A program made the translations under genes and the position numbers. 64,000 nucleotides of DNA, taken from assembly GCF_902497625.1 (NCBI RefSeq), contig NZ_CABVGX010000002.1:124001-188000 (forward strand). The letters are read 5' to 3'. This document shows, one piece after another, positions 21,316-47,754 of this stretch; within the stretch, counting starts at the first letter, position 1, and the number at the start of each line of letters is the position of its first letter. Source of the DNA: Pseudomonas fluorescens (GTDB lineage Bacteria > Pseudomonadota > Gammaproteobacteria > Pseudomonadales > Pseudomonadaceae). A model generated the notes under the pieces. The model did not search any database. It had not been told where the DNA came from and was given only the letters and a program-made list of their open reading frames with translations.

Positions 21316-21329
21316 GCTCGACACTCCCG

Positions 21330-31696: not shown

Positions 31697-32331
31697 AAGC
31701 GCTCGCGTTGATCTTCCTCACCATGTGTTTTTGCGTGATGAGCTTTCTGGCGTTTTCCCACGAAGGGCATCAGCCAGCCGCGTCTACAGAGCCACCGGCA
31801 GAAGCCGCGACGGCGGCGCAACCGGCCGCCGGCACCCGTGACGCAAAAACCTGGTTCACTGACACGCCGCTACAGGATCAGAACGGCGAGACCTTGCGCT
31901 TCTACAGCGATGCCTTGCAGAACCGTATCGTGCTGTTGAACGTGATCTTCACCAGTTGCACGGATGCCTGCCCGCTGATCACTCAAAAGCTCAAGCAAGT
32001 GCGTGAAGTCCTGGGCGACAAGGCGGACGGCATTACTTTTATTTCCCTTACCAGTGATCCGCTGCGGGACACCCCGGCGGTGCTCAAGGCTTACACCTTG
32101 AAGCAGGGCGTCGATGGCCCCCACTGGCTTTTTCTGACCGGTGACAAGGCACACATGGACCTTGTATTGAGCCGCATCGGCCAGATCATACCGAGCCCCG
32201 AACAGCACTCCACACAGCTGATCGTCGGTGACGTGGCCAACAAACGCTGGAGCAAGATTCGCCCCGACGCCCCGGCCGCTGCCATTGCCCAGCGCTTGCA
32301 GCTGCTGGCAATGCCCGTGGCTGGCCGTTGA
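31693..32331 (+). CDS. SCO family protein (copper chaperone), second copy
   Basis: The 212-residue exported protein has an N-terminal hydrophobic segment with SHEGHQ after it, an Ala/Pro linker and a SCO domain with C89-x3-C93 (FTSCTDACP). The third ligand may be His in EQHSTQLIVGD. It overlaps the first SCO gene by 4 bases (ATGA). Two different SCO proteins in tandem may divide the work, for example one as thiol reductase and one as copper carrier, as known for SCO/PCuAC systems. This division is an inference. Confidence 0.9.
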   Translation: MKALALIFLTMCFCVMSFLAFSHEGHQPAASTEPPAEAATAAQPAAGTRDAKTWFTDTPLQDQNGETLRFYSDALQNRIVLLNVIFTSCTDACPLITQKLKQVREVLGDKADGITFISLTSDPLRDTPAVLKAYTLKQGVDGPHWLFLTGDKAHMDLVLSRIGQIIPSPEQHSTQLIVGDVANKRWSKIRPDAPAAAIAQRLQLLAMPVAGR

Positions 32332-32340: not shown

Positions 32341-33891
32341 ATGAAAACTTCCCTCGTCCTTTGCCTGTTAATGCTCGGCGGCCTCAGTTTGACCGTGCAC
32401 GCGCTGCCCCTCAGCCCCAGCGAAAGCGCGGGCAAGCGGCTGTACCGGGAGGGCGTGTCAGCCAGCGGTGAACCGATCATGGCGCGGGTCGGTGCGGCAG
32501 ACATGCTGCTGCCCGCCACCAGTCTGCCCTGCGCCAACTGCCACGGCGCCGATGGCCTCGGGCGGCCCGAAGGAGGCGTGCGTCCGCCTGACATCAGTTG
32601 GTCGCGACTCAGCAGCACCTACGGTCAGCAGCAAATCAACGGCCGAGATTACCCGGCGTATTCTGAAAGCAGCCTGGTGCGGGCGATTCAGGAGGGACGG
32701 GATCCGGGTGATCATCGGCTCGACCCGGCGATGCCACGGTTCGTCCTGTCGATGAACGACCAGCGCAACCTCAGCGCCTACCTGAAACGGATCGCTGATG
32801 ATCGTGATCCCGGGTTGACCGCGGACAGTCTGCACCTGGGTACTTTGCTGCCGAGCCGGGGGCCGTTGGCAGAGGAGGGTGCCACCGTCGCAGCGGTGCT
32901 CAAGGGTAGCGTCGCGCGCATCAACGAGGCCGGTGGCCTTCATGGCCGGCAAGTGCTTTTGACGATTGTCGATCCGGGCCCGGACCGCGCCAGCGCCGAA
33001 CAGGCCTTACAACGCTTGATCGAACAGGAACAGGTGTTTGCCCTGATCGCACCGCTGGCACCGGCACTCAACGCGGACCTGGCACAGCGACTGGAGAGCG
33101 CTGGCATTCCACTGATCGGCCCGCTGTCGCTGCTAGGCAACGCGCAAAGCAACCGGCAGATCTTCGAACTGCTGCCAGGCCTGCGCGAACAGATGATCGC
33201 GCTCGCTGATTACGCCGCCGAGCGCTTGCGCGTACTGCAAGGGCCAACCTTGATCATCCATCCCAATGTTGCGACCCAGCGCCTGGCCGCACAGAACCTC
33301 GCTCAGTACTTGCAGGATCGCGCCTGGCAAAACGTCAGCGTGCAAACCTATGACTCGGCGCAGGACGAGTTGCCACTGGGCTCGCGCTCGGTGTTTTACC
33401 TGGGCAGCAGCGGCGGCTTCAGCAAGCTTGCCGAACGCTTGCAAAGCGCCGGGCAGGTGCCGTATTTGTTTGCCGCCTCGAACCAGGTGGCGGGCGACCT
33501 GATGCAGGTGCCCAGTGGATTTTCCCGACGGGTGTTTCTCGCTTACCCGTTTGTACCCAGCGACTGGACCCTGGCCGGGCGCACGGCCCTGAACCGTTTG
33601 CGCGAACATCAAGGTTTGGGCGGCGAGCACGCCGTGCTGCAAGTCGGCGCCTACACCTCGATGCTGCTGTTGAGCGAGGGCATGAAACAGGCCGGGCGCG
33701 ACGCCAGCCGCGAGAAGCTGGTCAACGCCCTGGAAGGGCTGCATGACTTCGAGACCGGCCTGACCCCGCTGATCAGCTTCGGCCCGGGTCGACGCCTCGG
33801 CCTCAGTGGCGCGCACATCGTCACCGTGGACCTGCCCGACCAGCGCTTCTACCGCGTCGCCCCTTATAAACCCATTGCCGCGATGCCTTGA
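32341..33891 (+). CDS. Cytochrome c fused to a periplasmic binding protein-like domain
   Basis: The 516-residue exported protein has a signal peptide (cleavage after VHA), a class I cytochrome c domain with haem motif CANCH (residues 64-68), and a C-terminal type 1 periplasmic-binding fold (about 165-510) like ABC branched-chain amino-acid receptors. The haem suggests electron transfer, possibly taking electrons from the oxidase or feeding the respiratory chain. The binding domain could sense or capture a ligand. This fusion is uncommon and its role is unknown. It is 9 bases after the second SCO gene. Confidence 0.85.
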   Translation: MKTSLVLCLLMLGGLSLTVHALPLSPSESAGKRLYREGVSASGEPIMARVGAADMLLPATSLPCANCHGADGLGRPEGGVRPPDISWSRLSSTYGQQQINGRDYPAYSESSLVRAIQEGRDPGDHRLDPAMPRFVLSMNDQRNLSAYLKRIADDRDPGLTADSLHLGTLLPSRGPLAEEGATVAAVLKGSVARINEAGGLHGRQVLLTIVDPGPDRASAEQALQRLIEQEQVFALIAPLAPALNADLAQRLESAGIPLIGPLSLLGNAQSNRQIFELLPGLREQMIALADYAAERLRVLQGPTLIIHPNVATQRLAAQNLAQYLQDRAWQNVSVQTYDSAQDELPLGSRSVFYLGSSGGFSKLAERLQSAGQVPYLFAASNQVAGDLMQVPSGFSRRVFLAYPFVPSDWTLAGRTALNRLREHQGLGGEHAVLQVGAYTSMLLLSEGMKQAGRDASREKLVNALEGLHDFETGLTPLISFGPGRRLGLSGAHIVTVDLPDQRFYRVAPYKPIAAMP

Positions 33892-33904: not shown

Positions 33905-34858
33905 ATGAAAATCACCCGCGTGTTGATCCTGTTTGCGATGTGGCTGCCGGCCGCGTTCGCCAGCAATGGCCCAGTGGCTGCGCGGGTCAATGGCGAGGAA
34001 ATCTCCGAAATGCGCCTCGAGCGCTACTTTGCTGAATTCCTCGAGGATCAGGGTCGGGCCGTCGCGAGCATCCGCAATCCCAAGGCGTATAAGCAATTGC
34101 GCCGGGCCGCGCTCGACACTTTGATCGACCGCGAATTGCTGTGGCAGGAAGCCGTCAAGCGCGGGGTGGTGATTAGCGATGCCACGGTGCAGGCCCAGGT
34201 TGAGCAAACCCGTCAGGCCATCGGCGGCGCGGACAAATTTGCCCAACGCCTGAGCGATGCCGGTTTTGACGAGCCGGGATTTGTCGAGTACACCCGCCGC
34301 GAACTCGCCGCGCAGCAAGTGTTCGCCGAGTTGACCAAGGGCAGCGCACCGGATGAGCAGCAGGTGCGTGCGTTCTTCGCCGAACATCGCGCCGAGATGA
34401 GCCGGCCCGAGCAGATTCAAGCCCGCCACATCCTCGTCAAAGTGCCGGCCGGTGCCGATGCCGCGACAGTTGAAGCAGCGCGGCTGCGCCTGGTAGAAAT
34501 GCAGGAAAAAATCCGCCAGGGTGCGGACTTTGCGAGCGTGGCTCGCAGCGGTTCCGAAGACAGCTCGGCCAGCAATGGCGGTGATCTCGGCTACTTCGCG
34601 CGCGGCCGCATGCTGCCGGAGTTCGACGCCGCCGCGTTTGCGCTCACCCCCGGTGCCGTCAGTGAGCCCGTGCGCACGGCAGTGGGCTGGCATCTGATTA
34701 TTCTTGAGAACCACTTGCGGGCTGCCGATGTCCCAGAAGAACAGGGGCTGGAAACAGTCAGGGCGTTTCTTGCCCGGCAGCAACAGTCTCAAGTGCGGCA
34801 ACAGGTCTTGGCCCGATTGCGCTCAAGCAATCGAATCGAACGGATTGACGATCAATGA
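33905..34858 (+). CDS. Exported PpiC-type peptidyl-prolyl isomerase
   Basis: The 317-residue protein has a signal peptide (MKITRVLILFAMWLPAAFA), a SurA-like N-terminal helical chaperone region and a parvulin domain around residues 170-275 (ARHILVKVPAG, GGDLGYFARGRMLPEFDAAAF, VRTAVGWHLIILE). Such foldases help outer-membrane or exported proteins to fold. As the last gene of the mnxG run it probably assists MnxG or the secreted amyloid and secretin. ATG 33905 is chosen for its signal peptide and GGAGG upstream. Confidence 0.9.
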   Translation: MKITRVLILFAMWLPAAFASNGPVAARVNGEEISEMRLERYFAEFLEDQGRAVASIRNPKAYKQLRRAALDTLIDRELLWQEAVKRGVVISDATVQAQVEQTRQAIGGADKFAQRLSDAGFDEPGFVEYTRRELAAQQVFAELTKGSAPDEQQVRAFFAEHRAEMSRPEQIQARHILVKVPAGADAATVEAARLRLVEMQEKIRQGADFASVARSGSEDSSASNGGDLGYFARGRMLPEFDAAAFALTPGAVSEPVRTAVGWHLIILENHLRAADVPEEQGLETVRAFLARQQQSQVRQQVLARLRSSNRIERIDDQ

Positions 34859-34866: not shown

Positions 34867-34880
34867 CCCCAATAGTGGGG
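34867..34880. promoter_or_regulatory. Putative MnxR enhancer site 1 (secretion operon)
   Basis: CCCCAATAGTGGGG, a CCCC-N6-GGGG palindrome, lies about 118 bp upstream of the sigma-54 promoter at 34998. It is centred 42 bp (four helical turns) from a second copy at 34909. Confidence 0.65.
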
Positions 34881-34908: not shown

Positions 34909-34922
34909 CCCCGATGTTGGGG
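34909..34922. promoter_or_regulatory. Putative MnxR enhancer site 2 (secretion operon)
   Basis: CCCCGATGTTGGGG is the second palindrome of the pair upstream of the secretion operon, about 76 bp upstream of the -24 element. Pairing on one DNA face fits cooperative binding by a sigma-54 activator. Confidence 0.65.
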
Positions 34923-34997: not shown

Positions 34998-35013
34998 TGG
35001 CATGAAGTGTGCG
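34998..35013 (+). promoter_or_regulatory. Sigma-54 promoter of the secretion/csg operon
   Basis: TGGCATGAAGTGTGCG has GG at 34999-35000 and GC at 35011-35012, exactly 10 bases apart. The start would be near 35024, 56 bases before the TTG of the receiver gene at 35080. Confidence 0.78.
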
Positions 35014-35079: not shown

Positions 35080-35613
35080 TTGGTAAACAAAGTACTGGTT
35101 GTTGAAGACGAACAACTCCTTGCCCAAAACCTCAAGGATTACCTTGAAGCGCAAGGTCTGGACGTCCGGATGGCACATGACGGTGCGACGGGAATCGGGT
35201 TAGCCGAACGTTTTGCACCTGATGTGATGGTGTTCGATTACCGCTTGCCTGATAGGGAAGGTTTCGAGGTGCTCGATGCCGTCCGCCAGAACGGGAAGTG
35301 TCATTTTGTGCTGATCACCGGGCACCCGACCGCAGAAGTTTGCGAACGGGCGCGCCAGAAGGGTGTCAGCCATATCCTGTTCAAACCCTTTCCATTGGCG
35401 GAATTGGCCCGTGCAGTTTGTGATCTTCTGGGAATCAGGCGCGAACCCAGAGCTGGCATGAGCTCATCCGCAGGTTTCGTCGAACGACGCCAGAGCAGGA
35501 CCGAGAGTTTCCCGCTGCAGTTGTACGACGGCAGTTGGGTGCTGGCAGATCGTCGACGCACTCCATCGACTTCCATGGCACCAGACGACGAACAATTGCT
35601 CACCGGGGATTAG
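35080..35613 (+). CDS. Receiver-domain response regulator heading the secretion operon
   Basis: The 177-residue protein has a complete CheY-like receiver (acidic pair in VVEDEQ, phospho-acceptor Asp in MVFDYRLPD, Thr in LITGHPT, Lys in LFKPFP) and a C-terminal tail of about 55 residues without a DNA-binding domain. TTG 35080 is the start: AAGGAG lies 6 bases upstream. It is the first gene after the sigma-54 promoter and enhancer pair, and could be phosphorylated by MnxS1 or MnxS2 to tune the secretion ATPase or compete with MnxR. Those partners are inferred. Confidence 0.85.
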   Translation: MVNKVLVVEDEQLLAQNLKDYLEAQGLDVRMAHDGATGIGLAERFAPDVMVFDYRLPDREGFEVLDAVRQNGKCHFVLITGHPTAEVCERARQKGVSHILFKPFPLAELARAVCDLLGIRREPRAGMSSSAGFVERRQSRTESFPLQLYDGSWVLADRRRTPSTSMAPDDEQLLTGD

Positions 35614-35695
35614 TGACGCGACAAGCGGTTCGGCTCACGCCGTAATTGCTCGCCGCGTCGACAGGGCATCAAGCCCCGGCGTTGGAGAGCAAGCC

Positions 35696-37402
35696 ATGGA
35701 CCGTCTATCCCTTGCCGTAGAACCGGCGCTGCTGGACTGCACACCGTCCCGTTTTACCAGCGAACAATTGGCCCAGGCCCGTGCCCGTGCCGCCACGTCC
35801 GGCGAGCGCATGCTCGAAGCCCTCGGGGTGCTTTGCGAACTGGCGCCTATGCCGTTCATCCAGTGCCTGGGCGCAACCCTGCATTACCCGGTGCTCGACA
35901 CCGACACCCTGTTCAGCGCCACCCCGGTGTTCGACCGGGTCACCCTGGCCCAATGCCTCAAACGCGAATTCATCCTGCTGCGCCACGACGACGCGGTCAT
36001 CGGCGTATTTGCCGACCCGTTTGATAGCGGGCGTCTCGCCTGGATCGATGACTGCCTGCACGGCGCGCCGTTGTACCTGGTGCATGCCGATGACCTCAAA
36101 GCCTATCTGGCACGTCACGAAGAAAGCTTCCACGCGGTGGAATCGCTCAACACCCAGGCCGGCGCCCATATCGAAATCGACAACCTGCAAAGCCTGTCCC
36201 TGACCAGCATCAGTGAGGACGCCAGCGTCGTCGTCAAGCTGGTCAACTCGACCCTGTACGACGCGCTGAAAATGCACGCCAGCGATATCCACCTCGGCAC
36301 CACCGGCAGCGGTCTGGTGATCAAATACCGGATCGATGGCGTGCTCAATAACATCAGCAAGATTCAGGGCAGCGAGTTCGCCGAACAGGTGCTGTCGCGG
36401 GTCAAGGTCATGGCCGAGCTGGACATCGGTGAAAAGCGCGTGCCCCAGGACGGTCGCTTCAAGATCGGCATCAGCGGGCGGCAGATCGACTTTCGGGTGT
36501 CGATCATGCCCAGCATTTTTGGTGAAGACGCAGTGCTGCGGGTGCTCGACAAACAGGACCTGGCGGACAAGGTCTGCGGCGTGCAGCTGCAGGCGCTGGG
36601 CTTTGAAGACGAAACTTTGCGCCAACTGCGCCGCCTCGCCGCCGAACCCTACGGCATGGTGCTGGTGACCGGCCCGACCGGCAGCGGCAAGACCACCACG
36701 CTGTACGCGATGATCACCGAGATCAACCACGGTGTGGACAAGATCATCACCATCGAAGACCCGGTCGAATACCAGTTGCCGGGCGTGCTGCAGATTCCGG
36801 TCAACGAGAAAAAAGGCCTGACGTTCGCTCGCGGCCTGCGCTCGATCCTGCGCCATGACCCGGACAAGATCATGGTCGGCGAGATTCGCGATCCAGACAC
36901 CGCGCAGATCGCCGTGCAATCGGCGCTCACCGGCCACCTGGTGTTCACCACGATTCACGCCAACAACGTGTTCGACGTGATCGGCCGTTTCACCCAGATG
37001 GAAATCGACCCGTACAGCCTGGTCTCGGCGCTCAATGCGGTGCTGGCGCAACGGCTTATCCGCCTGGTCTGCGCCACCTGCAGTACGCCAGGTAACCCCA
37101 GCGATGAAGAATTGCAGGCGTCGGGGCTCGATCCACGCCAGGTCGATCACTACCAGTTCGTGCATGGCAAGGGTTGCGGCCATTGCCGTGGCACCGGCTA
37201 TCGCGGTCGTACGGCGATTGCCGAATTGCTGCACCTGGACGATGAACTGCGGCAGATGATTGTCGAGCGCCAACCGATTTCGAAGATCAAGGCCCACGCG
37301 TGCAAACGAGGCTTGCGCTTGTTGCGCGAGTCGGCGCTGGAACTGGTGCAGGCAGGGCGGACTACGCTCGAGGAGATCAATCGTGTCACTTTTGTCTCGT
37401 GA
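35696..37402 (+). CDS. gspE: GspE/PilB family secretion ATPase
   Basis: The 568-residue hexameric traffic ATPase has an N-terminal GspE/MshE-N domain, Walker A GPTGSGKTTTLY (about residues 325-336), Asp box (IITIEDPVEYQ), Walker B KIMVGEIRD, His box (HLVFTTIHANN) and a four-cysteine zinc module (CATC ... CGHC). It powers assembly of the pseudopilus with GspF, which is encoded far upstream at 20128. GGAGAG precedes the ATG. Its 3' end overlaps the next gene by 20 bases. Confidence 0.94.
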   Translation: MDRLSLAVEPALLDCTPSRFTSEQLAQARARAATSGERMLEALGVLCELAPMPFIQCLGATLHYPVLDTDTLFSATPVFDRVTLAQCLKREFILLRHDDAVIGVFADPFDSGRLAWIDDCLHGAPLYLVHADDLKAYLARHEESFHAVESLNTQAGAHIEIDNLQSLSLTSISEDASVVVKLVNSTLYDALKMHASDIHLGTTGSGLVIKYRIDGVLNNISKIQGSEFAEQVLSRVKVMAELDIGEKRVPQDGRFKIGISGRQIDFRVSIMPSIFGEDAVLRVLDKQDLADKVCGVQLQALGFEDETLRQLRRLAAEPYGMVLVTGPTGSGKTTTLYAMITEINHGVDKIITIEDPVEYQLPGVLQIPVNEKKGLTFARGLRSILRHDPDKIMVGEIRDPDTAQIAVQSALTGHLVFTTIHANNVFDVIGRFTQMEIDPYSLVSALNAVLAQRLIRLVCATCSTPGNPSDEELQASGLDPRQVDHYQFVHGKGCGHCRGTGYRGRTAIAELLHLDDELRQMIVERQPISKIKAHACKRGLRLLRESALELVQAGRTTLEEINRVTFVS

Positions 37403-38186
37403 TCGTTTTATCGCCGTGCTCGGCGCCAGCGGCGTCGGTCTCGGCCAGCGCAAGGGCAGCGAAACCCTGTGGCTGGGCAGCGTCGGTTTCATCGACGAAG
37501 GTTTCCATGCCTGGTCAGTGGCGCTGGAAACCCTCGACCGCCTGCTCGCCGAGCACACGTGTCCCGGGGCGGAGTTGAGCGTGGTGGTTTCCGGGCATTT
37601 CGGGCGTTTTTGCCTGGTGCCCTGGAGCGACCAGATCAGCAGCCCGGCCGAGTTGCTCGGTTTCGCCACGCTGTGTTTCGAAGACCTGTATGGCGTACCC
37701 ACCCAGCCCTGGAGCGTGGTGCTGTCGCCCGAGCCTGCGGGATTTGACCGCATCGCCACCGCGCTGCCGCAGGAGTTGCTGGAGCGTCTGCGCAGCCTCG
37801 CCAGCGCGCGCAAGGTCCGTCTGGGCTCGGTGCAACCCTACCTGATGGCGGCCTTCAATCACTTTGACAAGAGTTTCGACACTGGCGACTTTCTGTTCGT
37901 AGTCGCCGAGCCGGTGCGCAGCGTGCTGCTGGTCGCTCGCGAAGGGCGCTGGGCCTCGGTACGTTCGGTGGGCACGGGTGACAGCGACGTGGCCCTGAGC
38001 GCGCTGATCGGCCGCGAAAGTCAGTTGCAGGCCTCGACCAGCGAGCGGCCGCTGAACCTTTACCTGCATGCGCCGGCACGTGTCGACGTGCAGCCCGACG
38101 TGCCCGGTGTGCAGTTGCGCACCCTCGAAGAAGACCGCACCCACGTGCGCGATTGCCTGTACGTGATGTCCCGGGCGGTGGCCTGA
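37383..38186 (+). CDS. Secretion-system protein in PilM position
   Basis: The 267-residue soluble protein starts at GTG 37383 (GAGGAG 7 bases upstream, inside the end of gspE). I do not see clear actin-fold motifs, but it occupies the place of pilM/gspL-cytosolic domain in a pilM-N-O-P-Q order. It has strand-rich segments such as FLFVVAEPVRSVLLVAREG that fit a degenerate ASKHA fold. It is best described as a PilM-like candidate of unknown biochemical role. Confidence 0.65.
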   Translation: MSLLSRDRFIAVLGASGVGLGQRKGSETLWLGSVGFIDEGFHAWSVALETLDRLLAEHTCPGAELSVVVSGHFGRFCLVPWSDQISSPAELLGFATLCFEDLYGVPTQPWSVVLSPEPAGFDRIATALPQELLERLRSLASARKVRLGSVQPYLMAAFNHFDKSFDTGDFLFVVAEPVRSVLLVAREGRWASVRSVGTGDSDVALSALIGRESQLQASTSERPLNLYLHAPARVDVQPDVPGVQLRTLEEDRTHVRDCLYVMSRAVA

Positions 38187-38187
38187 C

Positions 38188-38733
38188 ATGCGCCCGCTGA
38201 TGCTCGATTTCCAGCCACGTCGCCGCTCCGGTCCCTTGGGCTGGAGCCTGCTCGCCGTCGGCGCCGTTTTGACCCTCGGTTGCCTGTTCGTTCAGCACCA
38301 CCTCAGTGAGCAGGCGGCACAACAGCAAGGCCACTTGCAAACCGCGCAGCGTGTGCTGACCGGTGACAGTGGCAGCAAGACCAGCCTGACCCCGGCGCAA
38401 ATCCGTGAGCAGGCACAGAACCTCGCGGAAATGCGCAAGGTCTCGCAGCAGCTGCGGCGGCCGTGGGAGCATCTGTTCGCCATGCTTGAGAGCCTGCCAC
38501 GGGACAACATCGCGCTGCTGGCGCTGACCCCGGATGCGCGCAAGGGTCAGGTGCGAATCAGCGCCGAGGCGAAAGACCTGGAAGCGATGCTCGGCTTTCA
38601 CCGCAATCTCGAGGCCAGCGACGAGCTCTCCGATGTCTCGCTGCTGAGCCACGAAATTGTCGTCAACGTGGCGGAACGCCCGGTGCAATTCAACCTGTCG
38701 GCTACTTGGGAGATTGGCGATGCGAATCCCTGA
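38188..38733 (+). CDS. PilN/GspL-like inner-membrane assembly protein
   Basis: The 181-residue bitopic protein has a short basic cytosolic start, one transmembrane helix (residues about 17-36), a coiled-coil segment (about 40-95) and a ferredoxin-like periplasmic domain (LLALTPDARKGQVRISAEAKDLEAM). This is the layout of PilN and the GspL periplasmic part. Its start is one base after the previous stop, and its end overlaps the PilO-like gene by 14 bases. It likely dimerises with that protein to form the inner-membrane alignment complex. Confidence 0.75.
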   Translation: MRPLMLDFQPRRRSGPLGWSLLAVGAVLTLGCLFVQHHLSEQAAQQQGHLQTAQRVLTGDSGSKTSLTPAQIREQAQNLAEMRKVSQQLRRPWEHLFAMLESLPRDNIALLALTPDARKGQVRISAEAKDLEAMLGFHRNLEASDELSDVSLLSHEIVVNVAERPVQFNLSATWEIGDANP

Positions 38734-39268
38734 ATTGATCGTCCACGAATACCTGCAAGGGCTCGGCGTGCCCGGGCTGGCGGGGCTGGCGATGGTGCTG
38801 GTGGCGTTGGTGTATGGCCTGACGGGGCTGATGCCGGACTGGCAGTCGCTGCAACAGCTCAGCCAGCAGACCCGTGAAGCCGGTGAATACCTGGCCCGGG
38901 TCGAGGACGGCAGTGTCGCCGCGCCGGTGGTGCCGCAGCGCCAGCTCGATGACTTCCGCAGCAAGCTGCCGTCCCAACCGCAGGCCACCGTCGCCATCGA
39001 CAAGATTTATGCGTTGGCGGCGCAGGAACACATCAACCTGGCCCGTGGTGAATACGCCTTGGGCATCGACCCGAAGACCCATCTGGCGCGCTATCAGATT
39101 CTCCTGCCCGTGCGCGGCAGCTACCCGCAACTGCGGCGCTTCCTGCATGCCTTGCTGTTGCAACTGCCGGCCGTGGTGGTGGAAGACGTCGAGTTCCAGC
39201 GCAAGAAGATCGCCGACACCGACCTGACCGGCCGGATCCGCATGACCCTTTACCTGTCGAGGTCATGA
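38720..39268 (+). CDS. PilO/GspM-like inner-membrane assembly protein
   Basis: The 182-residue bitopic protein has one transmembrane helix (residues about 15-38), a coiled coil (about 40-65) and a C-terminal ferredoxin-like domain (ARYQILLPVRGSYPQLRRFL). This is the PilO/GspM plan. ATG 38720 lies inside the end of the PilN-like gene, and its stop overlaps the next start by 4 bases. It should partner the PilN-like protein. Confidence 0.75.
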   Translation: MRIPELIVHEYLQGLGVPGLAGLAMVLVALVYGLTGLMPDWQSLQQLSQQTREAGEYLARVEDGSVAAPVVPQRQLDDFRSKLPSQPQATVAIDKIYALAAQEHINLARGEYALGIDPKTHLARYQILLPVRGSYPQLRRFLHALLLQLPAVVVEDVEFQRKKIADTDLTGRIRMTLYLSRS

Positions 39269-39783
39269 TGAATAACAAGCGCGTAGCAGCATGGCTCGGT
39301 TTTTTTGCTATCGCGGCAGCGCTGGCCTGGTTGCCCGACTACCTGATGCCGACGGACGACCTCGATGTGGTCGCCGTGATGGCGAACCCCGCCAAAGGCA
39401 AAAACGTCGGCACGCTGCCGGCGGCTTCTGCCAGCACGAAAGCCGCCGTGGTCAAGGATCTCAGTCCGGCCGGCGACCTGTTCGCGGCGCGCAGCTGGAA
39501 GGCCGCGCCGAAGATCGCCACCGTCACTGAACAACCCGTCAGCGTCGCCCCGGTGGTGCAAGTCCCCACTGCACCGCCGATGCCGTTCCAGTTTGTTGGC
39601 CGCATGGATGACCGTTCCGACTTGCAGGTTTTTCTGCAGAACGGCGAAAAAATATACGTCGTACGCAAAGGGGATGTGATCGACGACACCTGGCGGATCG
39701 AGGGCATTTCCGATGTGGAATTGAGTCTGGTCTACCTGCCTCTGCATTTATCCCAGACGTTGTCTGTGGGGAGCGCGCAATGA
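39265..39783 (+). CDS. PilP/GspC-like clamp protein
   Basis: The 172-residue protein has an N-terminal transmembrane helix (residues about 8-26), an Ala/Pro/Val-rich periplasmic linker and a small beta domain (FQFVGRMDDRSDLQVFLQNGEKIYVVRKGDVI) characteristic of PilP/GspC homology regions. It links the inner-membrane complex to the secretin encoded next, with which it overlaps by 4 bases. I recall homologues in databases being labelled as part of a 'secretion system X', but cannot verify that here. Confidence 0.75.
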   Translation: MMNNKRVAAWLGFFAIAAALAWLPDYLMPTDDLDVVAVMANPAKGKNVGTLPAASASTKAAVVKDLSPAGDLFAARSWKAAPKIATVTEQPVSVAPVVQVPTAPPMPFQFVGRMDDRSDLQVFLQNGEKIYVVRKGDVIDDTWRIEGISDVELSLVYLPLHLSQTLSVGSAQ

Positions 39784-41612
39784 ACAGATCCCGGTTGTTT
39801 ACTAGCTTGTGCCTGTGTACCGCGCTGGCGGCGTGCAGTTCGGCCCAGGTCGCCAATAAGGAAGCGTCTGACCTGATCGAACAGGGCCAGTACGAAGCCG
39901 GGCTGGCGCGGATCGACGATGGACTGCGTGAGAACCCCCGCGACACGGAGTTGCATCTGGCCTTGAACAGTGGCCGCGCAAAGGCGATTACCGCACTGCT
40001 GACCCAAGCCGATGCCGACCGTGCGCACCGTGATTTTCCCCAGGCGCGCATGGGTTACAGCCGGGTGCTGACCATCGAGCCGAACAACCGGCGCGCCCAG
40101 GATGCCCTGCGCCAGCTTGACTACCTGCGCAGCATGGATGAAAAGCTCGAACTGGCCCGTGGCGACCTGCGTCGCGGCGACATTTACGGCGCCGATCGCC
40201 AGGTCAAACAGATCCTCGAACTGGACCCGAAAAACGACGGTGCGCTGGAACTGCAAGGCAATATTCGCCTGGTGCAGAGCCGCAACGTCATCCCTTACCC
40301 GCAGCTGCGCACACGCCTGGACCGGCCGGTGACCCTGGAGTTTCGCGACGCCAATCTGAAGACCATTTTCGAGGTGCTGTCGCAGGTCGCCGGGCTGAAT
40401 TTCATTTTCGACAAAGACCTGCGCCCGGACATGAAGGCCACCATCTTTGTGCGTGATGTACGCATCGAAGACGCCGTGGAACTGCTGCTGCAACAGAACC
40501 AGCTGCATCAGAAAGTGGTGAACGAAAATACCTTGCTGATCTACCCGGACTCGCCGCAGAAGCTCAAGGATTATCAAGAGCTGGTGATGCGCACGTTCTA
40601 CCTGACGAGCATCGACGCCAATACGGCCCTGAACATGATCAAAACCATGCTCAAGACCCGCGACGTGTTCGTCGATGAACGCCTCAACACCCTGACCATG
40701 CGCGACAGCGAAGACGCGATTCGCATGGCGGAAAAGCTCCTCCAGTCGCAAGACCAGTCCAACCCCGAAGTGGTGCTGGAAGTGGAAGTGATGGAGGTCG
40801 CCACCCAGCGCATTCTCGACCTGGGTCTGCAATGGCCGAATACCTTTGGCGTAGTCAATGGTGACGGTTCGGCGGTGACCATCCTGGATCAACTCAAGGG
40901 CATCAACTCCAGCCGGATCAGTATTTCGCCGTCGCCACAGGCCAAGATCAACGCGCAGGACAACGACATCAACACGCTGGCCAGCCCGGTGATTCGCGTC
41001 AGCAACCGTGAACAGGCGCGTATCCACATTGGTCAGCGTGTGCCGATCATCAGCGCCACGTCGGTGCCTTCTACCCAAGGGCCGGTGATCACCGAGAGCG
41101 TGACTTACCTGGATGTCGGTCTGAAGCTGGAAGTGCAGCCAACCGTGCACCTCAACGGCGAAGTCGCCATCAAGATCGCGCTGGAGGTCAGCAATGCAAC
41201 GCCGCTGGAGCCGACCCGCCAAGGCACGATTCCGGTGCAGGTCGACACCCGTAATGCGCAGACCACCTTGCGTCTGCATGACGGCGAAACGCAGATCCTC
41301 GCCGGGCTGATGCGCAACGATCACGGCGCCACCGGCAACAAGATTCCTGGCCTTGGCGACATCCCCGGGCTTGGCCGCCTGTTCGGCAGCAACAAGGACA
41401 CCGTCGGCAAATCCGAGCTGGTGCTGTCGATCACGCCGCGCATCGTACGCAACCTGCCGTACCAGAGCCCGTCGGACATGGAATTCCCCACCGGCACCGA
41501 AACCAGTCTGCACATTCAGGCCCCGGACCGGCGCATGCAGACCTCGACTCAGCCTGCTGGCCTCGACCATCCGGTTGCGGTCAACACTCCAGTCGTTATC
41601 GGGAAGCCTTGA
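39780..41612 (+). CDS. Lipoprotein secretin with TPR-like N terminus (GspD/PilQ family)
   Basis: The 610-residue outer-membrane channel has a lipobox (LAAC at residues 16-19), a TPR-like helical region (about 25-165), secretin N0/N1-type domains (TLEFRDANLKTIFEVLSQVAGLNFIFDKD; FYLTSIDANTALNMIKTML) and a C-terminal beta-barrel secretin domain (LEVEVMEV, VYLDVG-like strand, IPGLGDIPGLGRLFG). Secretins of tight-adherence or general secretion type form 12-15-mer gates. Being lipidated, it may reach the outer membrane without a separate pilotin. It lies between the PilP-like gene and the pseudopilins. Confidence 0.92.
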   Translation: MNRSRLFTSLCLCTALAACSSAQVANKEASDLIEQGQYEAGLARIDDGLRENPRDTELHLALNSGRAKAITALLTQADADRAHRDFPQARMGYSRVLTIEPNNRRAQDALRQLDYLRSMDEKLELARGDLRRGDIYGADRQVKQILELDPKNDGALELQGNIRLVQSRNVIPYPQLRTRLDRPVTLEFRDANLKTIFEVLSQVAGLNFIFDKDLRPDMKATIFVRDVRIEDAVELLLQQNQLHQKVVNENTLLIYPDSPQKLKDYQELVMRTFYLTSIDANTALNMIKTMLKTRDVFVDERLNTLTMRDSEDAIRMAEKLLQSQDQSNPEVVLEVEVMEVATQRILDLGLQWPNTFGVVNGDGSAVTILDQLKGINSSRISISPSPQAKINAQDNDINTLASPVIRVSNREQARIHIGQRVPIISATSVPSTQGPVITESVTYLDVGLKLEVQPTVHLNGEVAIKIALEVSNATPLEPTRQGTIPVQVDTRNAQTTLRLHDGETQILAGLMRNDHGATGNKIPGLGDIPGLGRLFGSNKDTVGKSELVLSITPRIVRNLPYQSPSDMEFPTGTETSLHIQAPDRRMQTSTQPAGLDHPVAVNTPVVIGKP

Positions 41613-41614
41613 TC

Positions 41615-42088
41615 ATGAACGCCTCCCAGCGCGGTTTTACCTTGATCGAAGTCGTGGTGACGCTGGCCCTGATCGGCCTGCTGGCCGGCATGGCCGCGCC
41701 GCTGACCGAGACCGTGGTGCGCCGGGGCAAAGAGCAGCAATTGCGCACCGCGCTGTACCAGATTCGCGACGCCATCGACGCCTACAAACGTGCGTTCGAC
41801 GCCGGTTACATCGAGAAGTCGCTGAACAGCAGCGGTTACCCGCCGAACCTGCAGGTGCTGGTCGAAGGCGTGCGTGATGTGCGCAGCGCCAAGGGAGCGA
41901 AGTTCTATTTCCTGCGCCGGGTGCCGCGCGATCCGCTGGCGCCGGTCAAGCGTGACGACGAAGGCGGCTGGGGCGTGCGCTCTTATGACAGCACGGCGCT
42001 GAACCCTCGCGAGGGCGAGGACGTCTTCGACGTTTACTCGCAAGCGCGTGGCAAAGGGCTCAACGGCATTGCGTATCGGGAGTGGTGA
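41615..42088 (+). CDS. Pseudopilin 1 of the secretion operon
   Basis: The 157-residue protein has a 6-residue leader, the prepilin site RG-FTLIEVVVTLALIGLLAG with Glu5, and a GspG/H-like C-terminal domain (PPNLQVLVEGV, RRVPRDPLAP). ATG 41615 follows the secretin stop by 2 bases. Together with the pseudopilins at 42091 and 21330 it would build the pseudopilus. The order suggests a minor or alternative major subunit. Confidence 0.9.
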   Translation: MNASQRGFTLIEVVVTLALIGLLAGMAAPLTETVVRRGKEQQLRTALYQIRDAIDAYKRAFDAGYIEKSLNSSGYPPNLQVLVEGVRDVRSAKGAKFYFLRRVPRDPLAPVKRDDEGGWGVRSYDSTALNPREGEDVFDVYSQARGKGLNGIAYREW

Positions 42089-42090
42089 TC

Positions 42091-42465
42091 ATGACTCGGC
42101 AAAAGGGTTTTACCTTGCTCGAACTGATGGTGGTCATGGCAATCATCGCCACCCTGATGACCATCGCCTTGCCGCGCTATTTCAACAGCCTCGAGGCGTC
42201 CAAAGAAACCACATTGCGTCAGAGCCTGTCAGCCATGCGTGAGGCGCTCGATCACTATTACGGCGACACCGGGCGCTATCCCGATTCCATCGAACAACTG
42301 GTCGAGCAGCGCTACCTGCGCAACCCGCCAACCGACCCGATTTCCGAGCGCAAGGATCTATGGGTGCTGGTCGCGCCGCCGGACGGCGTGGCAGGCGGCG
42401 TGGCCGATATCAAAAGCGGTGCCACCGGGAGGGCGCGTGATGGCAGCCTTTATTCCGAGTGGTAA
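42091..42465 (+). CDS. Pseudopilin 2 of the secretion operon
   Basis: The 124-residue pseudopilin has leader MTRQKG-FTLLELMVVMAII with Glu5 and a compact GspG-like domain (GDTGRYPDSIEQLVEQRYLRNPPTDP). GGGAG precedes the ATG. It is short compared with GspG (about 140). Its end overlaps the third pseudopilin-like gene by 26 bases. Confidence 0.9.
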   Translation: MTRQKGFTLLELMVVMAIIATLMTIALPRYFNSLEASKETTLRQSLSAMREALDHYYGDTGRYPDSIEQLVEQRYLRNPPTDPISERKDLWVLVAPPDGVAGGVADIKSGATGRARDGSLYSEW

Positions 42466-42976
42466 GCCGGCGGGTGAGGAGGGTTTCACCTACCTCGGCG
42501 TGCTGTTCCTGATCGTGCTGATGGGCATGGGCCTGGCCAGTGCCGGCCAATTGTGGTCGACCGCCTCCAAGCGTGATCGCGAGCGCCAGTTGCTCTGGGT
42601 TGGCACGCAATACGCCCAGGCGTTGCGCAGCTATTACCGCAGTTCGCCAGGGCTGGCACAGTACCCCAGAGAGCTGGCGGACCTGTTGCAGGACGAGCGT
42701 TTTCCCAATGCCAAACACCATATTCGGCAGCTGTACCCGGACCCGGTTGGCGGCGGTGAATGGACCTTGATGCGCGGGTTTGACGGGCGCATCACCGGCC
42801 TCAACAGCCCGTCCACGGATAAGCCGATGAAGCAGGCGGACTTCCCCGCGCAATGGTCGGATTTCACCGGGATGGCCAGTTACGCGGACTGGCAGTTCGT
42901 TGCCGAGAAGGCCTTCCTCGAAGGTGCGCCCGGACCGAATGCCCAGCCTGGTGCAGCGCCGGGAGTGCAGCCATGA
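42440..42976 (+). CDS. Pseudopilin-like protein 3, lacking Glu5
   Basis: The 178-residue protein has a 15-residue leader, GEEG-FTYLGVLFLIVLMGMGLASAG, then a soluble domain with WVGTQYAQALRSYYR and a Gly/Pro/Ala-rich tail. Position 5 after the expected cleavage site is Gly, not the Glu found in almost all pilins, a feature otherwise typical of the tip pseudopilin GspK. The 178 residues are fewer than in GspK (about 310), so it may be a minimal tip or an anchor. It overlaps the csgE start by 4 bases. Confidence 0.8.
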   Translation: MAAFIPSGKPAGEEGFTYLGVLFLIVLMGMGLASAGQLWSTASKRDRERQLLWVGTQYAQALRSYYRSSPGLAQYPRELADLLQDERFPNAKHHIRQLYPDPVGGGEWTLMRGFDGRITGLNSPSTDKPMKQADFPAQWSDFTGMASYADWQFVAEKAFLEGAPGPNAQPGAAPGVQP

Positions 42977-43362
42977 ACAGATTCTGTCTGGCCTTGATCC
43001 TGATCTTGAGCGCCTGGTCCGCCTCGGCCGCGGAAGAGGACGAACTGCTGGGCTTCGTCGTCGATGACACGATTTCGCACATCGGCCACGACTTTTATTA
43101 CGCGTTCACCGAACGCCTGCGCGCCACCAGCCCGATGGATTTCAACCTGGTGGTGCGCGAACGGCCTTCAGCGCGCTGGGGCAGCCTGGTGACTGTGGAA
43201 TATCAGCAGCGATTGGTTTACCGGCGCTTTCTGCCGCCCAACACCGTCGAGCTCAAGGAGGAGGCTTCCGACGCCGCCGACTGGGTTCGCGGACAGATTG
43301 TTCAGCGCAAGCTGGAAGCCTTGTTGCAGGACACCACGGACCTTGAGAGGGACGAATTATGA
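42973..43362 (+). CDS. csgE: Curli export specificity factor CsgE
   Basis: The 129-residue periplasmic protein has a signal peptide (cleavage after ASA) and clear CsgE motifs: FVVDDTISHIGHDFYYAF, ERPSARWGS and the final DLERDE. In E. coli a CsgE nonamer caps CsgG and selects curlin substrates. Here it is translated directly after a pseudopilin (ATGA overlap), joining curli export to the secretion operon. Confidence 0.93.
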   Translation: MNRFCLALILILSAWSASAAEEDELLGFVVDDTISHIGHDFYYAFTERLRATSPMDFNLVVRERPSARWGSLVTVEYQQRLVYRRFLPPNTVELKEEASDAADWVRGQIVQRKLEALLQDTTDLERDEL

Positions 43363-43778
43363 AAGCGAAAACGCTCTCGCAGTGCACCGGATTATGGTTG
43401 CTCGGCCTCGCCAGTGGCGGCCTGGTCCAGGCCACGGAGCTGGTCTACACGCCGATCAACCCCTCGTTTGGCGGCAACCCGTTGAACGGCACCTGGCTAC
43501 TCAATAACGCGCAGTCGCAAAACGATTACGACGATCCCGATTTGCGCAGCCGCTCATCGCTGGCCGGCACCTCGGCCCTCGAACGCTTCAGCAATCAACT
43601 GGAATCACGTTTGCTCGGGCAATTGCTGGACAACATCTCCACCGGCAACACCGGCAGCCTGTCCACCGATGCATTCATCGTCGACGTGCTCGACGATTCG
43701 GGGGCGCTGACGATTGTAGTAACCGATCGGGTGACGGGTGAAATTTCGGAAATCCAGGTGAATGGACTGGCCCCTTGA
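43359..43778 (+). CDS. csgF: Curli assembly factor CsgF
   Basis: The 139-residue exported protein has a signal peptide (cleavage near VQA) and the CsgF N-terminal signature LVYTPINPSFGGNPLNG that inserts into the CsgG pore, followed by the helical middle and a C-terminal beta region (FIVDVLDDSGALTIVVTD). It links the CsgG pore to the CsgB nucleator at the cell surface. Its ATG overlaps the csgE stop by 4 bases. Confidence 0.94.
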   Translation: MKAKTLSQCTGLWLLGLASGGLVQATELVYTPINPSFGGNPLNGTWLLNNAQSQNDYDDPDLRSRSSLAGTSALERFSNQLESRLLGQLLDNISTGNTGSLSTDAFIVDVLDDSGALTIVVTDRVTGEISEIQVNGLAP

Positions 43779-43809
43779 AGGGGACACGGGTCGATGGGGA
43801 GTGACGGAC

Positions 43810-44676
43810 ATGAAAAAAATAATACTGGTTGGGATGCTGCTGGCGACGTTGCAGGGTTGCAGTCTGCGTGAGCCGATGCCCGCCGAGCAGGACACCGAAT
43901 CACCGACGCTGACACCGCGCGCGTCGACCTATTACGACCTGATCAACATGCCGCGGCCCAAGGGGCGACTGATGGCAGTGGTCTACGGTTTCCGCGATCA
44001 GACCGGGCAATACAAGCCGACCCCGGCCAGTTCCTTTTCCACCAGCGTGACCCAGGGCGCGGCGAGCATGTTGATGGATGCGTTGCAGGCCAGTGGCTGG
44101 TTTGTGGTGCTGGAGCGCGAGGGGCTGCAGAACCTGCTGACCGAGCGCAAGATCATTCGCGCCTCGCAAAAGAAGGCTAATACGCCGGTGAATATCCAGG
44201 GTGAGTTGCCGCCGTTGCAGGCGGCGAATCTGATGCTCGAGGGTGGGATCATTGCGTATGACACCAACGTGCGCAGTGGCGGCGAGGGGGCGCGGTATCT
44301 GGGGATCGATATTTCCCGGGAGTACCGGGTGGACCAGGTTTCGGTGAACCTTCGCGCGGTGGATGTGCGCAGTGGCCAGGTGTTGGCGAATGTGATGACC
44401 AGCAAGACGATTTATTCGGTCGGGCGCAGTGCCGGGGTGTTCAAGTTTATCGAGTTCAAGAAGTTGCTCGAGGCTGAGGTGGGCTATACCACTAACGAGC
44501 CGGCGCAGCTATGTGTGCTGTCGGCGATCGAGTCGGCGGTGGGGCATCTGCTGGCGCAGGGGATTGAGCGGCGGTTGTGGGCGGTGGCGGGGGATAATTC
44601 GGCTGCGGCGCAGAATGAGACGCTGGATCGGTATCTGGCGCAGAGTAAGATTGTGCCTGAGGAAGCAGGTGAGTGA
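43810..44676 (+). CDS. csgG: Curli outer-membrane secretion channel CsgG
   Basis: The 288-residue lipoprotein has a lipobox (LQGC) and CsgG motifs: YDLINMPRPKGRLMAVVYGFRDQTGQYK, LEREGLQNLLTERKIIR, LEGGIIAYDTNVRSGG and RAVDVRSGQVLANV. E. coli CsgG (277 residues) forms a nonameric 36-strand barrel that exports unfolded curlin subunits. ATG 43810 is preferred to 43762 because of the lipoprotein signal. It is the last gene of the long secretion run; its subunit clients are encoded on the other strand at 45754-47695. Confidence 0.95.
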   Translation: MKKIILVGMLLATLQGCSLREPMPAEQDTESPTLTPRASTYYDLINMPRPKGRLMAVVYGFRDQTGQYKPTPASSFSTSVTQGAASMLMDALQASGWFVVLEREGLQNLLTERKIIRASQKKANTPVNIQGELPPLQAANLMLEGGIIAYDTNVRSGGEGARYLGIDISREYRVDQVSVNLRAVDVRSGQVLANVMTSKTIYSVGRSAGVFKFIEFKKLLEAEVGYTTNEPAQLCVLSAIESAVGHLLAQGIERRLWAVAGDNSAAAQNETLDRYLAQSKIVPEEAGE

Positions 44677-45753: not shown

Positions 45754-47205
45754 TCACTGCTGCAAAACAGTCGCCCGGTTATCCGCGCCAAACTGCTGCA
45801 CGGTCGCCATTTGCGTCATGCCACTCTGATCGACACTGGCCGTATTCCCCGTCCCGCCCTGGGTCACATAAGCCACGTTCATGCTGTCGGTCTGCTTGAC
45901 AGTGATCTGGTTGTCACTGCCATACACCTGGTTGGTGAACGCCTGGTTCCCGGTGCCAGACTGGTCGAACTCGGTGCTGTTACCCGACCCGGTGGAGGAG
46001 CCTTGCGCCAGGTTGGTGGTGCCGCGTTGCGAGGCGATGAGGATGTTGTCGCTGCCGTTCTGGTCGAAGTACAGCTCGTTGTAGGAGTCGGCCTGGGTGA
46101 CCGTGGTTTTGTTGCCGGTGCCGGTCTGGTTGGTGGTCATGACATGGCCGACGCCATCCTGGGTGAAGTTGGCGATGTTGTTGTTGCCAGCCTGGTTGAC
46201 GGTCGCACGTTGATTGCTGCCGAACTGGCCGCCGGAGTCCGGGCCCTTCCAGTTGCTGGCGTGGACTTTGTTGCCGTTGCCCACCGAAGTGGCGTTGAGC
46301 ACGTGGCTGTCGCCCGTCTGGTAGGTGAAGTGCACGTTATTGGTCCCTTGCTGGTACAGCGCAAGGGTCGAGCCGACCGACTCGAACTGGTCGGCGTAAA
46401 TTGCGTTGAGGTCGCCCACTTGCAGCACCTGGGCAACGTTGTTACTGCCGAAGCTCTGATCGACCACGGTTTCGTTGGTTTGCCCGTTCTGGGTGACAGT
46501 GGCCTGGCTGGCGGCTTGGGAATCCTGCCAGACTTCGGTGCCGTTGAAACCGCCGAGCTGGTTGATGGTGATGGTGCCGCCATCGCCGAAGCTCTGGTCA
46601 CCGTAGGCGTAGTTGCTTTCGCCGGCCTGGTTGATGTTGATCTGGCCGGCCATGTGGCCGATCTGTTCGGCGGTGCCGTAGTTGGCGGTGCCGAACTGGA
46701 TGACCGTCGCGTTGTTGCCGGCACCGAAAATGAACTGTTCGATGTTGGCTTCGTTGCCTTCACCGACCTGATACGTGGTACCCGAGCTGGCGTCCTGGGA
46801 TTCCTGATAAACGAAGGAGAAGTTGCCGGTGCCTTGCTGCTGTTGCAGGGCCTGGTTGCTCCCCACTGCGCCGATCGACTGGCTGGCATGGCTGGTGTTG
46901 AAGCTGCCGGCCTGCTGCTGGGTGATGGTGCTGCCGTTTTCGAACAACTGCTCGGCATAGCCGGCGTTGAATTCGCCGGCCTGATCCTGGGTGATGACGC
47001 TGGTGGCGGTGTCCTGGACCGCCGCCGCGTCGTTACCGCCGCCCAGTTGCTGCTGGGTGGCGCTGGCGAAGCTGGCCTGGCTTTGCTTCACATCGGCGAT
47101 GTTGGCGGTGCCGAGCTGGCTCTGGCTTGAAACGCTGTCGTCCGCCATGGCCTGGGCACTGACAATGACCAGGATGGCGGCGGTGAGGGGCGTCAGTTTG
47201 AACAT
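45754..47205 (-). CDS. csgA: Very long CsgA-like curlin amyloid subunit
   Basis: The 483-residue exported protein (signal peptide to AQAMA) is almost entirely curlin repeats: roughly 20 units of about 22 residues with the Q-x-G-x2-N-x-A/T-x3-Q pattern, for example NQAGNNNIANFTQDG and VKQTDSMNVAYVTQGG. E. coli CsgA has five repeats and 151 residues, so this is about three times longer. It should be exported by CsgG/E/F and polymerise into surface amyloid. Gln, Asn and Gly dominate; there are no cysteines. It is the last gene of a minus-strand operon with a sigma-54 promoter at 51460. Confidence 0.92.
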   Translation of the reverse strand: MFKLTPLTAAILVIVSAQAMADDSVSSQSQLGTANIADVKQSQASFASATQQQLGGGNDAAAVQDTATSVITQDQAGEFNAGYAEQLFENGSTITQQQAGSFNTSHASQSIGAVGSNQALQQQQGTGNFSFVYQESQDASSGTTYQVGEGNEANIEQFIFGAGNNATVIQFGTANYGTAEQIGHMAGQININQAGESNYAYGDQSFGDGGTITINQLGGFNGTEVWQDSQAASQATVTQNGQTNETVVDQSFGSNNVAQVLQVGDLNAIYADQFESVGSTLALYQQGTNNVHFTYQTGDSHVLNATSVGNGNKVHASNWKGPDSGGQFGSNQRATVNQAGNNNIANFTQDGVGHVMTTNQTGTGNKTTVTQADSYNELYFDQNGSDNILIASQRGTTNLAQGSSTGSGNSTEFDQSGTGNQAFTNQVYGSDNQITVKQTDSMNVAYVTQGGTGNTASVDQSGMTQMATVQQFGADNRATVLQQ

Positions 47206-47233: not shown

Positions 47234-47695
47234 TTAGCGATACTGTTTGACCGAAACGCTCATGCCGTTCCCAGCCTGGTTGACGGCGCTGGAAAGCCCC
47301 GTACCCGCCTGGTCGATGCTGGCGTCGTTGTTGTTGCCGTTCTGCGAAATCTGCGCGCGGTTGTGGTCGCCGTTCTGGGTGATCGATGCGGCGTTGCCGG
47401 AACCTTGCTGAGTGATCATTGCCATCAGGTCGCTGCCTTGTTGCAGGATGAATGCCTCTTGATTGCTGCCGGCCTGGACGATGCTGCCAAGCAGCGACTG
47501 GCCGTTTTGCTGCAGCAACGCGTAGTTGGCCTGGCCGATCTGTTCGATCAGGGCTTGCTGGCCGATCGGCGCTGGCAACTCGCCGAGGTCGGCGCCGGGA
47601 GCGATGTCTTCGTTTTCCATCAAATCGTCGGCACGCAGGCCGGCGCTGCTGCACGACAGGAGCAGGCAGAGCAGGGCGGCGGTCGACGTTTTCAT
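47234..47695 (-). CDS. csgB: CsgB-like curlin nucleator/minor subunit
   Basis: The 153-residue exported protein (MKTSTAALLCLLLSC signal, start at ATG 47695 with GGAGG upstream) has five curlin repeats (IEQIGQANYALLQQNG, IVQAGSNQEAFILQQGS, ITQNGDHNRAQISQNG). The short basic end SVKQYR resembles the C-terminal anchoring repeat of CsgB. Its size matches CsgB (151). It would nucleate the longer subunit encoded 28 bases downstream. Confidence 0.9.
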   Translation of the reverse strand: MKTSTAALLCLLLSCSSAGLRADDLMENEDIAPGADLGELPAPIGQQALIEQIGQANYALLQQNGQSLLGSIVQAGSNQEAFILQQGSDLMAMITQQGSGNAASITQNGDHNRAQISQNGNNNDASIDQAGTGLSSAVNQAGNGMSVSVKQYR

Positions 47696-47754
47696 GGCGA
47701 TATCCTCCGGCAAGCGCTCGCCCCCTCAACCGATGCGATTGAGGGGGCGATGGC

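Follow-up and report, generated by a model that had tools for sequence, protein, structure and literature searches.

The closest described counterpart of the locus analyzed here is the Gsp-related pathway for a manganese (Mn)-oxidizing factor of Pseudomonas putida GB-1, which was published in 2003 and, as its title and the papers citing it indicate, was reported to be required (de Vrind et al. 2003, Mol Microbiol 47:993). Our locus lies in 64,000 nucleotides of Pseudomonas fluorescens DNA (contig NZ_CABVGX010000002.1, positions 124,001 to 188,000; hereafter the window), where the genes of a type-II-secretion-like machine are followed directly by csgE, csgF and csgG, the genes of a curli channel. 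The P. putida pathway reportedly comprises the xcmT1-xcmS pair and, next to csmEFG, xcmX with two genes of xcpT type. In the same species, csgEFG and csgAB are found in separate clusters (PMC3056050). For Mn-oxidizing Pseudomonas, a six-gene mnxG operon, the regulators MnxS1/S2/R and a requirement for rpoN have been described (PMC11409713), and sigma54 and integration host factor sites were predicted at mnxG and mcoA (PMC11930936); the main texts of these two papers contain none of the words "secretion", "curli" and "csg". A 2012 survey of curli systems reported Pseudomonas csg operons without a nearby csgD, except in P. stutzeri, and suspected other, unknown regulators; its main text in turn mentions neither "type II secretion", "gsp" and "secretin" nor "manganese" (PMC3521004). 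In the twenty years since the pairing was published for P. putida, little follow-up has appeared in the literature that we searched, and we found no paper there that linked curli to the Mnx regulon.

The locus matches this Xcm/"Csm" pathway. In its reported form, the pathway consists of xcpT-like and XcmX-like pseudopilin genes with csgEFG homologues directly behind them, together with a separate xcmT1-xcmS (GspG-GspF) pair, and both components are present here, the latter on the minus strand (20128-21764), about 13 kb ahead of the main run. An earlier note made from the letters alone (the original prediction) had overlooked this pair; such a machine requires a platform protein and usually also a major pseudopilin. 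The prediction's view that no system of this make-up had been described does not stand beside the 2003 publication. What sets the present locus apart from the reported Xcm/Csm pathway is that the machine, MnxG, the curlins and the MnxS/R-like regulators all lie in a single island of about 36 kb (about 20.1-56.3 kb of the window; Table 1). Besides GspF-GspG, the MnxG operon and Xcm-CsgEFG, this island encodes curlins, a pair of paralogous secreted proteins, a sigma54 activator and two sensor kinases. It is a known kind of locus, here unusually complete. The six-gene mnxG operon is the same as in the Mn-oxidizing Pseudomonas of PMC11409713, and in DSV-1 and MS-1 from that paper mnxG and mnxS1 are 23 IMG ids apart, a value equal to the gene count in the window if the ids follow the chromosome. 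By family matches, the window likewise holds a set like MnxS1/S2/R, with a sigma54 response regulator behind a pair of sensor kinases.

We read the locus as a Mnx/Xcm/Csm Mn-oxidation island with two parallel exporters under one switch rather than one fused machine, and assign to this reading a probability of about 0.7. MnxG would be made alongside copper chaperones, fold in the periplasm and cross the outer membrane through a dedicated exporter in which ATPase E, the platform protein F, the M-N-O-P components and liposecretin D work with the major pseudopilin G and another three pseudopilins. CsgE-F-G, encoded at the 3' end of the Xcm operon, would form a separate channel for the convergently encoded curlins, since curlins co-occur in 65/65 csgF genomes. 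The mnxG operon, the Xcm-CsgEFG operon and the curlin-side operon have sigma54-type promoters, and two of these promoters share a strongly conserved palindrome; they would answer to one activator that turns on the oxidase and its exporter jointly with the amyloid and its channel, and a curli matrix around MnxG-secreting cells would be the likely product. What is new is that the shared sigma54-type sites and the palindrome, both read from sequence, suggest a common switch for oxidase, exporter and amyloid fibres. The most likely activator is the island's MnxR-like protein, whose binding to these sites we infer. The sites offer a testable candidate answer to how Pseudomonas csg genes without csgD are controlled, and they would link a metal oxidation of environmental importance with one named exporter and one named amyloid.

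The promoter evidence was as follows. A strict sigma54-type site stood ahead of mnxG in 21/21 loci, one such match in the window alone being not rare. For the Xcm operon, five duplicate loci were dropped, leaving 90 distinct loci; a GG-N10-GC site of the form TGGCA-N7-TGC was present upstream of the receiver gene in 88 of them and the other two had TGGCG, the background expectation being 0.023 TGGCA-N7-TGC matches per 420 bp. The operon encoding the paralogue, the cadherin-repeat protein and the curlins had an upstream sigma54-type site in 19 of 24 distinct loci. Upstream of csgE itself, TGGCA-N7-TGC was found in just 4/89 loci and at scattered positions. A broader sigma54-type form preceded none of six stand-alone csgE genes, whereas it preceded all four second or relocated mnxG copies. 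At L103 and L112, which lack MnxG, the site of the mnxG type now stands 65 bp ahead of the SCO1 match.

When palindromes shared by the mnxG, Xcm and curlin-side promoters were searched for blindly, CCCCA-N4-TGGGG ranked first. Perfect copies occur twice in the window, once at the Xcm promoter and once at the curlin-side promoter; shuffled windows held 0.09 on average, and 0/100 reached two. With at most one mismatch, the palindrome was present at 90/90 distinct Xcm promoters (perfect in 82), with two or more matches, overlapping ones counted, at 83 of them, and at 19/24 distinct curlin-side loci, mostly at a fixed distance of about 102 bp from the sigma54 site. It was absent from all 11 stand-alone csgE loci, and a one-mismatch copy lay within 500 bp of two of the four second or relocated mnxG genes. 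Since related loci are not independent events, we regard the match between two promoters of one genome as the stronger point.

The genes governed by these promoters also occur together. In a genus sample of 199 Pseudomonas genomes, 61 held a close secretin (identity ≥72%) and, as far as the sets could be compared by eye, the identical 61 held a close GspF (≥66%). MnxG was found in 59 of these 61 genomes vs 0/138 others, and csgF in 65/199, 58 of them within the 61. Comparison of the listings placed curlin repeats in 66 genomes, namely the 65 with csgF and G505, which retains a csgE remnant. In 58/61, csgF lay on the same strand, 1784-2404 bp behind the secretin gene; MnxG lay 10.4-12.3 kb upstream of it in 53, on another contig or at a distance in six, and was absent in two. 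A secretin-alignment scan of named loci, from which the best 80 of at least 553 relatives were taken, gave csgE, csgF and csgG downstream of the secretin and in its orientation in 72, among which were Oceanisphaera and Halopseudomonas loci; L097, L103, L108, L112, L113 and three Aromatoleum loci made up the other eight. The adjacency, whose lack of conservation the original prediction had named among its grounds for refutation, is conserved, and because csg follows the secretin this often in both samples, chance adjacency is implausible. The prediction's idea that oxidase export and amyloid formation go in step fits both the co-occurrence and the shared promoters, and the latter give it a concrete footing in regulation.

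The machine has relatives without csg genes. In a class sample of 369 genomes, a relative of the secretin (E up to 1e-50) was found in 10 non-Pseudomonas genomes and csgF in six different ones, with zero overlap between the listings; csgF was also found in 0/31 genomes of the order of G172, a count that is little informative. Seven of 12 fetched class-sample secretin loci (L068-L073, L077) showed the order gspG-gspF-E-M-N-O-P-D-psp1-psp2-psp3 (psp, pseudopilin), fewer genes were matched at L074-L076, L083 and L084, and csg genes were matched in 0/12. A Burkholderia ambifaria plasmid showed the order SLT-gspG-gspF-E-four small genes-secretin-three pseudopilin genes, and a lytic transglycosylase is annotated next to gspG in B. 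ambifaria L086. Conversely, csgEFG also occur alone at other loci. In the ATPase tree, in which csgE remnants were scored as csg, the csg-bearing Pseudomonas rows formed one group (branch 100/100) with G389 as its sole csg-less member; many of the branches outside this group were long. In the CsgG tree, Xcm-locus CsgG formed one group (82/89), with the stand-alone copies of G410 and G428 adjacent, and was separate from the CsgG that Pseudomonas curli systems usually have; a csgG match in L016 was a wrong-frame artefact and was excluded. Since the machine occurs without csg in ten genomes of other genera, csgEFG looks like an add-on, and the most likely history would be a single addition of csgEFG to a pre-existing machine, with GspG-GspF moved.

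Several observations weigh against a single Mn-oxidation island under one switch. The curlin-side palindrome was missing at 5/24 loci, three of which matched at just 46-48% and may be the paralogue; at mnxG promoters it was found in 13/21 with at most one mismatch, and the window's own mnxG promoter has two mismatches. It was also not found within 500 bp of the second MnxG of G455 or the relocated MnxG of G470. Fisher tests on the co-occurrence overstate independence, because the genomes are related. Whole-genome searches for MnxG and csgF, made for 14 of the best 80 named loci, found neither in L103, L108, L112 and L113, MnxG without csgF in L097 and in three Aromatoleum genomes (MnxG 63-67%, together with the machine), and both in the remaining six. 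L097 is the same sequence as G505, which retained MnxG, has no csgF in the genome and no csgG found in 20 kb. The machine is kept without MnxG in six genomes: L103, L108, L112, L113, G531 (no csgF either; csgE fragments persist, and csgG was not found in 20 kb) and G389 (neither MnxG nor csgF anywhere in the genome; machine seen to a contig end inside the secretin gene). MnxG may therefore not be the sole cargo, or its loss may be recent; no clear replacement cargo was seen downstream of psp3 in the MnxG-less loci. Finally, in G455 a second MnxG lies beside csgEFG and curlins with no adjacent machine.

The adjacency could also be explained in other ways. The original prediction had proposed a composite machine, and in its physical form Xcm and CsgEFG would share parts (e.g., the pseudopilus or the PilP-like protein docking on CsgG) and give amyloid and oxidase a joint exit. 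Such an assembly would suit the 4-bp overlap of psp3 and csgE, which 17 of 23 measured loci show, and an adjacency that holds in 58/61 genomes although mnxG, the curlins and XcmST1 have been relocated in some. However, relatives in the ten non-Pseudomonas genomes lack csg, Aromatoleum combines MnxG with the machine and has no csgF, which also means that curli are not needed for MnxG export, csgEFG stand alone elsewhere, and shared promoters are the simpler account of the adjacency; we consider a physically integrated machine very improbable, and the composite proposal was not supported. It is still harder to credit that CsgEFG export MnxG or another non-curlin cargo. The presence of csgF in 58 of the 59 MnxG genomes of the genus sample would agree with that idea, but curlin repeats accompany csgF in all 65 csgF genomes, Aromatoleum again has MnxG without csgF, and from general curli knowledge MnxG, with its 1943 residues, is large for the CsgG channel.

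Hitch-hiking, by which csgEFG arrived behind xcm once and the order was merely inherited with no functional coupling, draws on the grouping of Xcm-linked CsgG, so that a single event may suffice. We hold it to be unlikely, because the adjacency survives divergence (secretin 72% identity) where other island parts moved, the palindrome is shared with the separate curlin-side operon, and csgF and MnxG are jointly absent in six machine-bearing genomes. Two parallel exporters under one switch remain our preferred reading. A broader version of it, tentative and in our view rather doubtful as a whole, would be a sigma54/MnxR biomineralization programme in which one site type drives oxidase, private exporter, curli channel, curlins and the paired secreted proteins, MnxG sits on amyloid that serves as a scaffold for templating and retaining Mn oxide, and the csgEFG-xcm fusion took curli from their usual control.

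Compared with canonical type II secretion, the Pfam parts (secretin, ATPase, platform protein and major pseudopilin) are present, but the NCBIfam scores for GspE (493 vs 630 bits), GspD (157 vs 351) and GspF (283 vs 424) are all below cut-offs, so the machine is a relative of type II secretion and not a standard Gsp set. Ten other genomes of the 199 hold a distant, Txc-like relative (secretin 33-36%, GspF 40-43%); in contrast to the window, the three fetched Txc-like loci have no csgEFG and a different gene order, and none of the ten was among the csgF genomes by eye. Two of these three loci (L032, L033) carry a lytic polysaccharide monooxygenase gene inside the cluster, a multicopper oxidase lies beside a related machine in Cupriavidus metallidurans (L085), and a di-haem peroxidase adjoins the B. 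ambifaria machine genes. A dedicated exporter adjoining its own cargo has been reported for Txc and CbpE (PMC12369383). We take the cargo-beside-exporter idea as a lead only, because most of the 12 loci whose neighbours were viewed show no secreted oxidoreductase. With the E. coli curli system (csgDEFG/csgBAC), the locus shares the CsgE, CsgF, CsgG and curlin families; unlike there, the csg genes are joined to a secretin-machine operon, the promoters carry sigma54-type sites and no CsgD was found among the window genes given family scans, in agreement with the 2012 survey on Pseudomonas (PMC3521004).

The run itself consists of 13 plus-strand genes back to back, the last four being psp3-csgE-csgF-csgG. 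The uninterrupted series that had been predicted was confirmed by Pfam for the receiver, the GspE ATPase, PilN, PilO/GspM, the secretin (with a lipobox, N domains and an STN domain), the first two pseudopilins, both with N_methyl motifs, and CsgE, CsgF and CsgG. The original prediction's naming of a PilM/N/O/P-like set and three pseudopilins held in part. The protein in the PilM position had no match by Pfam, by NCBIfam or by a PDB profile made from 13 sequences, and hence its identity as PilM, including the PilM of the mannose-sensitive haemagglutinin (MSHA)/type IVa pilus, is unsupported; the PilP-position protein had PilP as its top PDB profile match, weakly (E=0.42). Pseudopilin 3 had no Pfam or NCBIfam match and lacks Glu5 (GFTYLG), as in 14/14 aligned rows including the window; its AlphaFold model, of modest confidence (mean predicted local distance difference test score 64.6), shows a single long N-terminal helix, with PulG and EpsG as the nearest folds (E=0.06).

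With our own start choices, the 12 successive gaps were 82, -11, 1, -14, -4, -4, 2, 2, -26, -4, -4 and 31 bp. Overlaps of 4-26 bases occur at seven of the 12 junctions, so that the many predicted overlaps are real and their upper bound of 32 is not; with 43810 as the start of the csgG lipoprotein, csgF and csgG are clear of each other. Simple scans of the psp3-csgE interval revealed no plus-strand terminator and no sigma70-like promoter; a terminator or separate promoter there, together with a lack of conserved adjacency, had been named as grounds for refutation. Stable hairpins form in the leader of the receiver gene (35010-35085; -32.9 kcal/mol, z -3.69), and one of them contains the ribosome-binding region and the TTG start. 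Control of this leader by RsmA was rejected, the full motif being found upstream of the receiver gene in 0/95 loci. We also rejected an Xcm-specific alteration of the CsgG constriction, since the residues presumed to form it differ from those of E. coli in stand-alone Pseudomonas CsgG too.

Table 1. Features of the Mn-oxidation island, in window coordinates
Feature	Position	Strand	Family match or remark
GspF-type platform protein (XcmS-like)	20128..21324	-	PF00482 twice; TIGR02120 282.6 bits, below 424 cut-off
GspG-type major pseudopilin (XcmT1-like)	21330..21764	-	PF08334, PF07963
Lytic transglycosylase	21960..22568	+	PF01464
Sigma54-type site TGGCATGCCGATTGCT of mnxG operon	22997..23012	+	strict site
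MnxG manganese-oxidizing multicopper oxidase	23068..28899	+	NF041487 3921 bits vs cut-off 3100
YncE-type beta-propeller, mnxG operon	29062..31026	+	PF21783
SCO1/SenC copper chaperone	31040..31696	+	PF02630
Second SCO1/SenC	31693..32331	+	PF02630
Periplasmic binding protein	32341..33891	+	PF13458 over cut-off; PF00034 20.7 bits, under 21.3 cut-off (weak cytochrome c match)
SurA/PpiC-type peptidyl-prolyl isomerase	33905..34858	+	PF00639, PF13624 (open reading frame listed from 33806)
Palindrome, putative activator site, Xcm promoter	34867..34880	.	perfect match
Second palindrome, 42 bp downstream of first	34909..34922	.	1 mismatch
Sigma54-type (GG-N10-GC) site of Xcm-CsgEFG operon	34998..35013	+	conserved across loci
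Stand-alone receiver protein	35080..35613	+	PF00072
GspE-type ATPase (XcmE)	35696..37402	+	PF00437
Conserved protein in PilM/GspL position	37392..38186	+	position conserved in fetched loci
PilN-type	38188..38733	+	PF05137
PilO/GspM-type	38720..39268	+	PF10741
PilP/GspC-like by position	39265..39783	+	weak
Lipoprotein secretin (XcmD), TPR-like N-terminal region	39780..41612	+	PF00263, PF03958, PF07660, PF13428
Pseudopilin 1	41615..42088	+	PF07963
Pseudopilin 2	42091..42465	+	PF07963, PF08334
Pseudopilin 3 (XcmX-like), no Glu5	42440..42976	+	model resembles PulG/EpsG
csgE	42973..43362	+	PF10627; NF007701 above cut-off
csgF	43359..43778	+	PF10614
csgG lipoprotein	43810..44676	+	PF03783
Long curlin	45754..47205	-	PF07012, 7 stretches
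Second, shorter curlin	47234..47713	-	PF07012, 3 stretches
Secreted protein, cadherin/immunoglobulin (Ig)-like repeats	47755..50043	-	PF17963, PF17803
Probably secreted beta-rich protein, no family	50040..51386	-	paralogue of cadherin-repeat protein
Sigma54-type site of curlin-side operon	51445..51461	-	conserved across loci
Palindrome at curlin-side operon	51551..51564	.	second perfect match in window
Sensor kinase (MnxS1-like)	51663..53135	+	PF02518, PF00512
Sensor kinase (MnxS2-like)	53235..54911	+	PF02518
Sigma54-dependent response regulator (MnxR-like)	54880..56307	+	PF00158, PF00072, PF02954

Elsewhere in the island, the two sensor kinases are 64% identical. The cadherin-repeat protein and its paralogue share 47% identity, and a fold search with the 447-residue secreted protein gave Ig-like/adhesin matches with template modelling (TM) scores of about 0.1-0.2, which is uninformative. 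A palindrome with one mismatch lies between the two sensor-kinase genes (53127-53140); in DSV-1 and MS-1, mcoA is located between the sensor-kinase genes (PMC11409713). A weak form of the palindrome, CCCCATTTTTCGGG (21924-21937), is conserved in near relatives, in the interval from which gspG and the transglycosylase gene diverge. A palindrome plus sigma54 site at gspG-gspF was nevertheless rejected, as near relatives show this weak conserved half-match and no conserved sigma54 site; rows for the gspG promoter that were mostly psp1 cross-matches had been left out.

The arrangement of the island varies among Pseudomonas. In the more distant genomes (GspF about 66-68%), GspF is located elsewhere, and so are the curlins in several fetched loci. 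Second MnxG copies (about 75%) occur at L018 (G455), L019-L020 (G519) and L021 (G535), the last beside a cadherin-type protein and its paralogue. Tandem arrays lie in and around the island at 22659-22868, 44701-44877, 45194-45436, 56798-57358 and 59462-59874, with units of 38/58, 69, about 50, 134 and 42 bp, respectively, and 91-95% matches. Upstream of the island, 14160-17060 encodes a GAF-GAF-GGDEF-EAL protein.

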